DNA of 64,000 bases, from NCBI GenBank assembly GCA_040218535.1, contig JAVJRG010000005.1, positions 1,798,001-1,862,000 of the forward strand, given 5' to 3'. The translations under genes were made by a program, and so were the position numbers. Below, one piece after another: positions 27,667-30,095 of this stretch. Under the pieces are notes generated by a model. The model had not been told where the DNA came from. It worked only from the letters and a program-made list of their open reading frames with translations, and made no database searches. How positions within the stretch are numbered: position 1 is the first letter of the stretch; every line of letters starts with the position of its first letter. This stretch comes from Lacipirellulaceae bacterium. GTDB taxonomy: Bacteria; Planctomycetota; Planctomycetia; Pirellulales; Lacipirellulaceae.

Positions 27667-29154
27667 ATGATGTCTACTCTCACGGAGCGCCGCTGGCTGA
27701 CGCTCCTGCTCGCGGCAATCATGTCGCTCACAGTCATAAGCGTTGGGCCGACGGCCTACGCGCAAGGTGAAGAAGAAGGGGAAACGGCTACGGAATCCGA
27801 GTCCGAAGCACCCGAGGAAGAAGCTGAAGAAGAGGGTCCGAAGAAAGAAATCGATTACGACGGTGCCGATTTCAAGTTCGGCTACACCATCAACACGTTG
27901 ATCATGTTTGTCTGTGCCGTGTTGGTCATCTTCATGCAAGCTGGCTTCGCTATGCTTGAGGTCGGCCTCAACTCAGCCAAGAACACGGTGAACATTCTCT
28001 TCAAGAATGTTATGGATTTATCGGTGGGCGTATTGCTCTACCTGTTCATCGGCTGGGGGATCATGTACAGCGGTACCGATAGCCCGTACTTCGGTTACGA
28101 TGGGCCATGGGTTTCTCGCGACGCTGTTGCTGCAGAAGACGGCTCATGGGAAACGCCACCAAACGACAACGACGATGCAACCGAAGAGACTGCAGCGACC
28201 GCCTACGCAAGTAGCGGAGCTGACTTCCTATTCCAGGTTGCCTTTGCTGCTACCGCAGCAACGATCGTTTCTGGAGCTGTAGCAGGACGTATGCAATTCA
28301 AGGCGTACCTCATCTATTCAGCGATTCTCACAGGTATCATCTACCCAATTAGCGGTTTTTGGAAATGGGGCGGGGGATTCCTCGACCAAGAAGGCTTCCA
28401 AGACTTTGCGGGATCAGTGGTGGTGCATGCGGTGGGCGGTTTCGCCGGTCTCGCTGGTGCCATGATTCTAGGTCCACGTCTTGGTCGATACGTGAATGGA
28501 AAATCAGTACCTATGCCAGGCCACAATGTTGCCTTCGCTGCCCTGGGTGTATTCATCCTATGGGTAGGGTGGTACGGATTTAACCCTGGTAGCCAGTTGA
28601 CCTACGATGGCTACGCGAACGCTGAAGCAACGACTTACATTGCCTTGACCACCACCATCGCTGCCGCTGCCGGTGCTGTAGCAGCTATGATTTTCGCTTG
28701 GGCGATGTTCGGGAAGCCAGATGTCACCATGGCATTGAACGGCACTCTCGCAGGCCTTGTTGCGATCACTGCTAACTGTGATCGCGTAAGTCAACCAGAA
28801 GCTCTGATTATTGGAGCCGTTGGTGGTCTGCTAGTCGTTCTCGGAATTGTGCTTCTGGACAAACTCAAGATCGACGACCCTGTCGGTGCTTGGCCAGTTC
28901 ACGGGCTCTGCGGAGTCTGGGGCGGACTCGCAACGGGTATCTTCGGCGATCTGCCAGACGGTATCGACACCCAAGGTGCTTTCTTCTTCGTTCAGTTGAA
29001 GGCGACAGTGATTATCTGTGTCTGGGCATTCGTGACGATGTTCATCCTGTTCTCCATCCTCAAAGCCATGGGCATCCTCCGTGTGAGCGAAGCCGAAGAG
29101 CAGCAAGGTTTGGATATCAGCGAGCACGGCATGCAAGCCTATACGACTGGTTGA
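27667..29154 (+). CDS. amtB: Ammonium transporter
   Basis: 495 residues, Amt/MEP/Rh family. A signal peptide (LTLLLAAIMSLTVISVGPTAYA) is followed by a very acidic linker (EEEGETATESESEAPEEEAE, residues about 36-60), then eleven membrane helices. The conserved twin histidines that line the pore are visible in VVHAVGGFAGLAGAMILGPR and GAWPVHGLCGVWGGLATGIFG. The family start AGFAMLEVGLNSAKNTVN is present. It takes up ammonium or ammonia at low external nitrogen. A sigma-54-type promoter lies upstream, and the PII gene at 29748 is its expected regulator. ATG 27670 in the same frame is an equal start candidate. Confidence 0.95.
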   Translation: MMSTLTERRWLTLLLAAIMSLTVISVGPTAYAQGEEEGETATESESEAPEEEAEEEGPKKEIDYDGADFKFGYTINTLIMFVCAVLVIFMQAGFAMLEVGLNSAKNTVNILFKNVMDLSVGVLLYLFIGWGIMYSGTDSPYFGYDGPWVSRDAVAAEDGSWETPPNDNDDATEETAATAYASSGADFLFQVAFAATAATIVSGAVAGRMQFKAYLIYSAILTGIIYPISGFWKWGGGFLDQEGFQDFAGSVVVHAVGGFAGLAGAMILGPRLGRYVNGKSVPMPGHNVAFAALGVFILWVGWYGFNPGSQLTYDGYANAEATTYIALTTTIAAAAGAVAAMIFAWAMFGKPDVTMALNGTLAGLVAITANCDRVSQPEALIIGAVGGLLVVLGIVLLDKLKIDDPVGAWPVHGLCGVWGGLATGIFGDLPDGIDTQGAFFFVQLKATVIICVWAFVTMFILFSILKAMGILRVSEAEEQQGLDISEHGMQAYTTG

Positions 29155-29172
29155 GAGACAGCTTGACGACTC

Positions 29173-29217
29173 TCACCGCTGGCGGATTTGCTACCTCCAA
29201 GAACCGCCAGCGGTGAG
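29173..29217 (+). terminator. Strong hairpin after amtB
   Basis: CTCACCGCTGGCGG (29173-29186) pairs over 14 bases with CCGCCAGCGGTGAG (29204-29217) around a loop of about 17 bases. It starts 18 bp after the amtB stop codon. TTTAG follows rather than a long U-tract, so it may slow polymerase or protect the 3' end as much as terminate. Confidence 0.6.
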
Positions 29218-29263
29218 TTTAGAAACTATGAAGCGTTCGACTCTTGCCTGGGTCGAGCTTTGA

Positions 29264-29320
29264 AGTCCCAATGGCTTGGCCGCCGATCGCCGCCTACTGG
29301 CGGCCAGGCCGGGACTTTTT
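29264..29320 (+). terminator. Probable intrinsic terminator downstream of amtB
   Basis: The outer stem AGTCCC (29264-29269) pairs with GGGACT (29311-29316), and the inner GGCCGCC pairs with GGCGGCC, forming a long stem with bulges. TTTTT (29316-29320) follows directly. This is the best intrinsic-terminator shape in the amtB-glnK gap and would separate the two genes into different transcripts. Confidence 0.65.
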
Positions 29321-29393
29321 CGTTGCCTTTCGAGTAGGTTTAGGTTCAACGGCGGTTTGGAACGAACATCGATAGTCGCCGGGAACGAAGGCA

Positions 29394-29466
29394 GGCTATC
29401 AGTTTTCAGCCCTCAATTCTCAGCCTCTTCCAAAGCTGAAAGCTGACGGCTGATAGCTGACAGCTA
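29394..29466. repeat. GCTGATAGC-word inverted repeat
   Basis: The left side GGCTATCAGTTTTCAGCC (29394-29411) mirrors the right side GCTGAAAGCTGACGGCTGAT, then AGCTGACAGCTAG (to 29466). The right side is itself a run of variants of AGCTGA. It belongs stylistically with the other word-type intergenic repeats. Confidence 0.6.
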
Positions 29467-29502
29467 GTCCTCTGAGCAGATGCTCAATCTTCAGAACATG
29501 TC

Positions 29503-29525
29503 AGTGGCACACTCCGCGTGCCACT
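29503..29525. repeat. Short perfect hairpin AGTGGCAC/GTGCCACT
   Basis: AGTGGCAC (29503-29510) pairs perfectly over 8 bases with GTGCCACT (29518-29525), with loop ACTCCGC. It lies between the word repeat and the cloverleaf in the amtB-glnK gap. The TGGCAC here is not a sigma-54 element because no GC follows at the required spacing. Confidence 0.55.
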
Positions 29526-29545
29526 CTCTAAGAAACCGCTTCCTC

Positions 29546-29629
29546 CAGAAGGACGCCCCAAGTGGCTTGGGCGTGCTTTACCGCCTAAGTGCGCTCAAGC
29601 CGGGGTGTCTTGCGAGGCTTGTCCTTCTG
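29546..29629 (+). ncRNA. Candidate structured RNA with four-stem cloverleaf
   Basis: 84 bases upstream of glnK. Closing stem: CAGAAGGAC (29546-29554) with GTCCTTCTG (29621-29629), 9 bp. Inside are three hairpins in a row: CCCAAG-TGG-CTTGGG (29557-29571), CGTGCTT/AAGTGCG (29572-29578 with 29587-29593, two G-U pairs) and AAGCC/GGCTT (29597-29601 with 29616-29620). The G-U pairs favour the plus strand as the RNA. It is not a tRNA: there is no T-loop consensus. It may be a cis element of glnK or a repeat family member. Confidence 0.4.
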
Positions 29630-29634
29630 TGGGT

Positions 29635-29746
29635 CAGGGGATTAGGTTATTAGGTGGTTAGGGTCGAGACGAATTACGGCTAGAATCAGTCAACGCATTC
29701 CTGTTCAACCCTACTTACCTAACCACTTAATCCCTAGTCCCCTACC
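29635..29746. repeat. TTAGGT-word inverted repeat abutting glnK
   Basis: The left arm 29637-29664 (GGGGATTAGGTTATTAGGTG, then GTTAGGGT) faces the right arm 29707-29745 (AACCCTACTTACCTAACCAC, then TTAATCCCTAGTCCCC), which ends two bases before the glnK ATG. The left arm closely matches the complement of 33079-33106 in the atpD-atpC gap, so this is one family. No Shine-Dalgarno is left before glnK. Confidence 0.65.
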
Positions 29747-29747
29747 G

Positions 29748-30095
29748 ATGAAGCTCATCATTGCCGTGATCCAGCCAAGCAAGCTGGAAGATGTGAAACA
29801 GGCCCTCTCAGAGGTCGAAGTCGTGCGTCTCACCATCATGGATGTGCAAGGCTTCGGTCGTCAGAAGGGCCAGACGGAGATCTATCGAGGTCGCGAGATT
29901 ACCGTCAACCTTCTCCGCAAGGTCCAGTTGCAGATTGCCGTGAATGACGACTTTGTCGAGCCGACGGTCAACGCCATTCTGCAGGGCGGTCGCACCGGCG
30001 AGACAGGCCAGATTGGCGACGGCAAGATCTTTGTGCTGCCGCTTGAAGACTGCATTCGCATCCGTACGGGCGAGCGTGGAGAAGAAGCGATTTGA
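29748..30095 (+). CDS. glnK: Nitrogen regulatory protein PII
   Basis: 115 residues, a full-length PII trimer subunit. It binds ATP/ADP and 2-oxoglutarate and gates AmtB or nitrogen enzymes. MKLIIAVIQPSKLEDVKQAL, GFGRQKGQTEIYRG and the C-terminal GDGKIFVLPLEDCIRIRTGERGEEA are diagnostic. In the T-loop the residue at position 51, Tyr in enterobacterial PII (the uridylylation site), is Ile here (RGREITVN), and position 49 is Arg, not Ser. Tyr46 is kept. It should therefore not be uridylylated at the classical site. The call glnK rather than glnB rests on amtB lying upstream. Confidence 0.93.
   Translation: MKLIIAVIQPSKLEDVKQALSEVEVVRLTIMDVQGFGRQKGQTEIYRGREITVNLLRKVQLQIAVNDDFVEPTVNAILQGGRTGETGQIGDGKIFVLPLEDCIRIRTGERGEEAI

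Follow-up and report, generated by a model that had tools for sequence, protein, structure and literature searches.

A conserved hairpin family with a near-invariant CCGCC loop at the amtB and glnK genes of Pirellulales

A long RNA hairpin carrying the loop motif CCGCC accompanies the ammonium transporter gene amtB and the PII gene glnK in Pirellulales, and its standing as a conserved family of this order is well supported. The family is under selection as RNA, in the sense direction of amtB and glnK. Its members share a long covarying stem, bulged on the 5' side, and a near-invariant CCGCC loop. The copy studied here, hairpin B, lies in a window of 64,000 nucleotides from a Lacipirellulaceae genome, where the order of elements is amtB, a small hairpin (P0), hairpin A, a gap, hairpin B and glnK (Table 1).

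Table 1. Elements of the amtB-glnK locus, in positions of the window
Feature	Positions	Strand	Parts and scores	Basis
amtB, ammonium transporter, upstream neighbour	27667..29154	+		ORF; Pfam PF00909, 422.5 bits
P0, small hairpin 5' of hairpin A	29237..29256	+	loop UUGCCU 29244-29249	fold; P0 family
Hairpin A, second copy of the family, 3' of amtB	29262..29318	+	loop CCGCC 29290-29294; U-tract 29316-29320; R1 38.6 bits, R2 46.8 bits across 29254-29320	covariance models; fold
Hairpin B, flagged copy	29545..29611	+	unpaired 5' CCAGA; P1 29550-29559/29602-29611 (10 bp); 5'-side bulge 29560-29563 (4 nt); P2 29564-29578/29587-29601 (15 bp); loop UACCGCCU 29579-29586, with CCGCC at 29581-29585; R1 79.0 bits, R2 69.6 bits	one long hairpin by fold; covariation in relatives
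3' half of the 9-bp closing stem first proposed	29621..29629	+		flanks of relatives: not kept
glnK-like PII gene, downstream neighbour	29748..30095	+		ORF; Pfam PF00543, 97.1 bits

The initial annotation had marked positions 29546-29629 as strongly structured, and the plus-strand fold bears this out, reaching -47.7 kcal/mol (z -5.86) with none of 200 shuffles as good, while the minus strand folds less well (z -2.92, 3 of 200 shuffles). The cloverleaf drawn there, with a closing stem around three inner hairpins, is rejected. The minimum-energy fold of these bases consists of the long covarying hairpin, which alone gives -41.6 kcal/mol (z -6.3), and a 4-bp side hairpin. The sequence does allow the proposed closing stem CAGAAGGAC/GTCCTTCTG, but the 3' half of that stem is not conserved in relatives and is therefore placed outside the family; their P1 pairs AGGAYRCCCC with GGGGYRUCCU. 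The element is not a tRNA, as had been stated, and ARAGORN finds no tRNA or tmRNA gene in the window. What had been described as a terminator-like structure upstream does carry a U-tract, and it is itself a member of the family, hairpin A.

Several other features were observed around the hairpins. Directly past the amtB stop, at 29172-29217, there is a perfect 14-bp inverted repeat, CTCACCGCTGGCGG ... CCGCCAGCGGTGAG, with a spacing of 18 nt, which is distinct from the hairpin family. Imperfect inverted and direct repeats of the GCTGAAAGCTGA type occupy 29395-29457, between hairpins A and B, and the interval from hairpin B to glnK holds the inverted repeat GGGATTAGGTTATTAGGTGGTTAGGG / CCTAACCACTTAATCCC (29631-29741), which a stretch 3' of the hairpin in locus L029 resembles. 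A promoter scan of 29100-29800 found none, and no conserved promoter was seen.

Compensatory stem changes, which had been named in advance as support for a regulatory RNA, were found. One line of evidence is A1, a sequence-only alignment of 24 copies that owes nothing to the model and leaves out L031 (a 20-nt match) as well as L033 and L034 (second tandem copies). Double changes occur there in 10 of 24 base pairs, against a shuffled mean of 3.4 (0 of 500). Among 103 distinct copies, double changes appear at all 24 pairs, in 478 cells against 124 after shuffling, and 31 copies outside Lacipirellulaceae contribute 132 such cells against 38; because the models favour CCGCC and alignments A3-A5 are fitted to the model, loop and pair counts are inflated. 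Of the 50 rows of alignment A4, the 35 in sense orientation were used. A1 and a sequence-free scan of the gaps are free of this bias. Over the same 103 copies, G-U pairs fill 305 cells and A-C pairs only 36, an excess that identifies the sense RNA as the selected strand and fits the early remark that G-U pairs occur only on the plus-strand reading. Where a neighbour could be found, the 110 copies taken at E<=0.0006 all lie on the sense strand of the locus.

Over all copies, the CCGCC bases of the loop carry 1.92-2.0 bits each, and a single stem column exceeds 1.8 bits. By fold, 159 of 163 distinct copies have CCGCC in the main loop; this loop is usually 8 nt long and the base preceding CCGCC is variable. 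A contiguous-stem scan that uses no sequence model, applied to 16 amtB/glnK gaps chosen for having model matches, placed CCGCC at the loop in 73 of 79 stems, and the same scan of the rest of the window, on both strands, gave 0 of 35. A looser survey, also without a sequence model and with many bulges allowed, was uninformative (89 stems with CCGCC, 187 with other loops, 6 with GGCGG).

The family is widespread within the order and was found nowhere else in the phylum sample, in which 9 of 392 genomes match, every one of them in Pirellulales. The covariance model R2, built from 110 copies, matches at least 215 of 396 Pirellulales genomes, in 81 of 144 genera and 19 families, a lower bound because 13 candidates were scored per genome. 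Within Lacipirellulaceae, own genome included, R1 matches 35 of 43 genomes at E<=1 and 33 of 43 at E<=0.01; of the 28 genomes of good quality it matches 27. DNA similarity alone detects the element in 24 of 58 relatives, the own genome not counted, and among the 27 matches listed the fetched stretch contains glnK in all except L025, L031 and L032. Hairpins were also present at 8 of 35 named PII loci that were fetched, mostly planctomycete. Some of these eight bear the submitters' labels Planctomycetales or Planctomicrobium, and the hairpin is missing from loci labelled Pirellula, Pirellulales (L055) and Thermoguttaceae; submitter names do not fit the order neatly.

In its own genome the element is confined to one locus. 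A 116-nt DNA query against the 5.36-Mb genome returned itself and seven matches of 14-19 nt only, and models built from relatives recover just hairpins A and B, 230 nt apart, which does not support the earlier suggestion of a dispersed structured repeat. A second amtB-PII pair of this genome (contig C10:292374-294080) is without a hairpin.

Position ties the family to nitrogen genes, and a structured RNA linked to such genes, suggested from the start, is supported by covariation and by the place beside amtB and glnK. The 88 distinct hairpins in fetched stretches comprise 45 flanked by amtB upstream and glnK downstream, 22 that have only glnK, downstream, 19 that have only amtB, upstream, and 2 with neither gene close by; the "only" counts are upper bounds because some stretches stop at contig ends. 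The first description of the element as upstream of glnK is thus part of the rule, but the 19 copies that follow amtB alone lack a glnK gene further along the fetched DNA. Thirty further genomes, sampled at one locus each, show amtB and/or glnK adjoining the hairpin in 29 cases. A set of 29 genomes gave 38 hairpin loci, 36 of them at Amt or PII genes, and 99 of 101 copies within 2.6 kb of such a gene on the same strand; like the 30, these genomes were drawn from those already known to have matches. Copies were present at 28 of 69 amt genes and absent from 41, including one of the two in the own genome. For these counts two antisense shadows were dropped (103 to 101 hairpins), two rows of a single split amt gene in genome G013 were merged (70 to 69), and the best 73 of 131 PII gene rows were used.

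A crude ORF picker places some copies 2-15 nt past an upstream ORF and facing a convergent gene, and some glnK-only copies next to a divergent upstream gene. Since copies stand both 3' of amtB and 5' of glnK, the hairpin is neither a leader element only nor a 3'-end element only. A few orphan or weak copies adjoin other genes (L164, L243, L244, L245, L246). Three of them (L243, L245, L246) are orphan hairpins that have the CCGCC loop away from amtB/glnK, L243 at a contig end, and in L247 a copy lies ahead of amtB.

These distributions make it highly improbable that the hairpin is a mobile or REP-like DNA repeat residing in the gap by chance. Tandem arrays do occur in some Lacipirellulaceae, at a spacing of about 100 nt, as such a repeat might show. 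However, the two copies at a single locus of the own genome largely refute the idea, and it is further opposed by the sense-strand orientation of the 110 copies, the G-U bias and the 99 of 101 copies near Amt or PII. Dispersal of the REP/BIME kind is not what was found, with one locus in the own genome and 36 of 38 loci at Amt or PII across the 29 genomes.

The companion hairpin P0 gives a second view of the loop. In many families outside Lacipirellulaceae P0 abuts the element, with the consensus GGCUC-UUGCCU-GGGCC, and runs into the conserved CCAG. P0 covaries moderately: double changes fill 16 cells against 6.2 (0 of 500) and occur in 4 pairs against 2.3 (32 of 500). The main loop is without CCGCC in L164, L231, L235 and L241 (the 4 of 163 by fold) and in the weaker matches L244 and L247, being UUCG in five of these and UUGCCU in L231. 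In all six, a stem scan finds CCGCC as the loop of P0, a hairpin that forms by fold in four of them and not in L241 and L247. Among 66 other copies classed as having CCGCC in the main loop, P0 contains it in none; one of the 66, L166, has CCGCC in the stem only, absent from both loop and P0. It and L167, which has CCGCC in neither the loop nor P0, are weak matches and are not counted as members. The move of CCGCC to P0 indicates that the CCGCC loop is separable from the terminator hairpin.

This separation bears on a simpler reading, according to which the hairpins are plain intrinsic terminators or 3'-end stabilisers whose loop is kept for folding only. Across the order, a tract of 5 or more U within 7 nt follows 55 of 88 hairpins, a count that starts further inside the hairpin than an earlier one (31 of 60), which began too near the hairpin end. 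A Lacipirellulaceae-centred set has the tract in 10 of 30, against a background of 3.6%. The U-tract of hairpin A and the copies starting 2-15 nt past an upstream ORF agree with termination. On the other side, 33 of 88 hairpins are without the tract, among them hairpin B, after which a clear U-tract is absent; in arrays the loop is kept and the tract follows 14 of 77 copies (63 of 77 without; background 3.6%); CCGCC appears in P0 when the main loop becomes UUCG; and the other stems of the window are without CCGCC. We consider termination or stabilisation alone unlikely.

Arrays reach considerable size by R2, with 20 copies in genome G013, 15 in G016 and 9 in G003. In G013 (L153) the array follows amtB, though the PII gene whose score is comparable is about 21 kb off (C1:3070115-3070441), and a convergent ORF stands beyond the last hairpin of the array. 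In L154 and L155 (contigs C94 and C90 of G021) the assembly apparently breaks within an array, leaving glnK and amtB at two different contig ends.

Ahead of glnK, many Lacipirellulaceae copies carry AUG or GUG, continued by GCU UGG, after AGAAGGA and a short spacer, as a translated leader peptide would require. This candidate was rejected, and its probability is practically negligible: other families often have AACGG at that place, the start codon is missing in L025, L027 and L030, and array copies are without an AUG or GUG start. The 30 nt 5' of glnK (29718-29747 in the window) are mostly pyrimidine-rich in Lacipirellulaceae, where a Shine-Dalgarno site before glnK is not obvious; some other families differ.

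Rfam 15 at the gathering threshold, glutamine riboswitches included, gave no match in the window or in 12 related loci. A permissive search of the gap (E<=5) returned 10 sub-threshold matches, none over 29545-29611; one of these is a minus-strand EGFOA match overlapping hairpin A, with 20.1 bits against a cut-off of 37.7. The open-access literature searched contained no description of the hairpin element, so that it is new relative to Rfam 15 and that literature, a comparison that has the 2017 survey and the Rhodopirellula-1 motif outside it. The 2017 survey reportedly comprises 224 candidate RNAs. The Rhodopirellula-1 motif is a table row in PMC2864571.

The element can nevertheless be set beside known systems. 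In the CsrB/CsrC sponge RNAs, many hairpins carry GGA in their loops; the repeated loop motif is alike, with CCGCC here in place of GGA. A CsrA site in the CCAGAAGGAUG box was rejected on inspection, GGA being absent from most array copies and several others. The multi-hairpin sRNAs of rhizobia are the "cuckoo" RNAs. According to PMC3927594, these RNAs (SmelA075/SmelA099) are rows of hairpins with one loop motif on variable stems. The likeness lies in the constant loop, the variable stems and the several hairpins (here in array genomes only), but the rhizobial loop is the anti-Shine-Dalgarno CCUCCUCCC according to the same paper. The Pirellulales hairpin, unlike those sRNAs, belongs to another phylum, is tied to amtB/glnK and is often single.

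Candidate glutamine riboswitches, as PMC2864571 describes them, precede genes for PII, glutamine synthetase and ammonium transporters, a number of them in tandem, and so have target genes in common with the hairpin. This match is what favours a metabolite-binding riboswitch ahead of glnK, sensing glutamine, ammonium or 2-oxoglutarate. We hold it to be very unlikely, for the hairpin has no Rfam match, is a single hairpin whose bulge sequence is variable, and sits also after amtB with no downstream gene on that strand. The pan motif of the same paper is a simple stem, mostly in tandem, and a suggested protein-binding site; its conserved part is two bulged A residues, and it accompanies other genes. 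Targets of ANTAR proteins (NasR, AmiR, EutV) include nitrogen genes and consist of two adjacent hairpins near a terminator, with conserved loop bases in hexaloops that have A1 and G4 (PMC3369931). The dual hairpins are alike, but the A1/G4 rule as given there fails here, where P0 is mostly UUGCCU and the main loop CCGCC. An ANTAR partner was rejected, the domain occurring in 9 of 29 hairpin-bearing genomes, own genome included. In membership, the hairpin family matches none of the rhizobial sRNAs, the glutamine-riboswitch candidates or the ANTAR targets.

Loop conservation, the loop swap and the arrays together argue for recognition rather than termination alone. We give an even chance to the preferred reading, that the hairpin is a cis element, its loop bound by a putative trans factor that would control amtB/glnK transcripts. 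CCGCC would be the recognition part, and the factor, more likely a protein and possibly an RNA, would bind the loop on the amtB 3' end and the glnK leader. Depending on nitrogen status, binding might set the stability of these transcripts, their 3'-end formation or read-through; single copies may often coincide with an intrinsic terminator, and arrays would offer more binding sites on each transcript. Against a cis reading stand the 41 of 69 amt genes without the hairpin and the few orphan copies beside other genes. Its occurrence both at 3' ends and in leaders fits no simple single cis mechanism.

A possible but rather improbable alternative is a trans RNA, in which hairpins freed from the amtB 3' UTR, or from the leader of glnK after termination, would sponge up a protein or sRNA, or would pair with mRNAs through the CCGCCU loop. 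The arrays of 9 to 20 copies suit this, the U-tract after 55 of 88 hairpins would yield sRNA-like ends, the constant loop on variable stems resembles the rhizobial sRNAs (PMC3927594), and a few genomes have AGGYGG close to the start of glnK. Nevertheless, the copies remain at Amt and PII genes rather than in free genes, a neighbourhood that a trans RNA does not need. A conserved complement of the loop was not found, and the downstream enrichment of AGGCGG/AGGUGG is modest (15 against 7.2, 12 against 4.8) with no fixed place. Pairing between the loop and the start region of glnK was rejected as a conserved feature, as it was seen in a minority only.

Returning to the hairpin as a bound element of amtB/glnK transcripts, a wider and more tentative proposal, to which we give a somewhat less than even prospect, is a Pirellulales RNA code for nitrogen control. 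The CCGCC-loop hairpin on these transcripts would be read by a putative RNA-binding regulator, and some lineages would have amplified the hairpin for dose (20 R2 copies in G013), so that the 3' region of amtB would serve as a sponge.

PII and AmtB form the core of ammonium sensing in bacteria, and to our knowledge their control in planctomycetes is largely open. An order-wide hairpin at the PII and AmtB genes, with a fixed loop on a rewritten stem, offers a concrete object for a partner search, and the reappearance of CCGCC in the neighbouring hairpin when the main loop loses it adds to what can be tested on that object. Hairpin arrays at a single locus, if regulatory, would amount to a copy-number experiment set up by nature.
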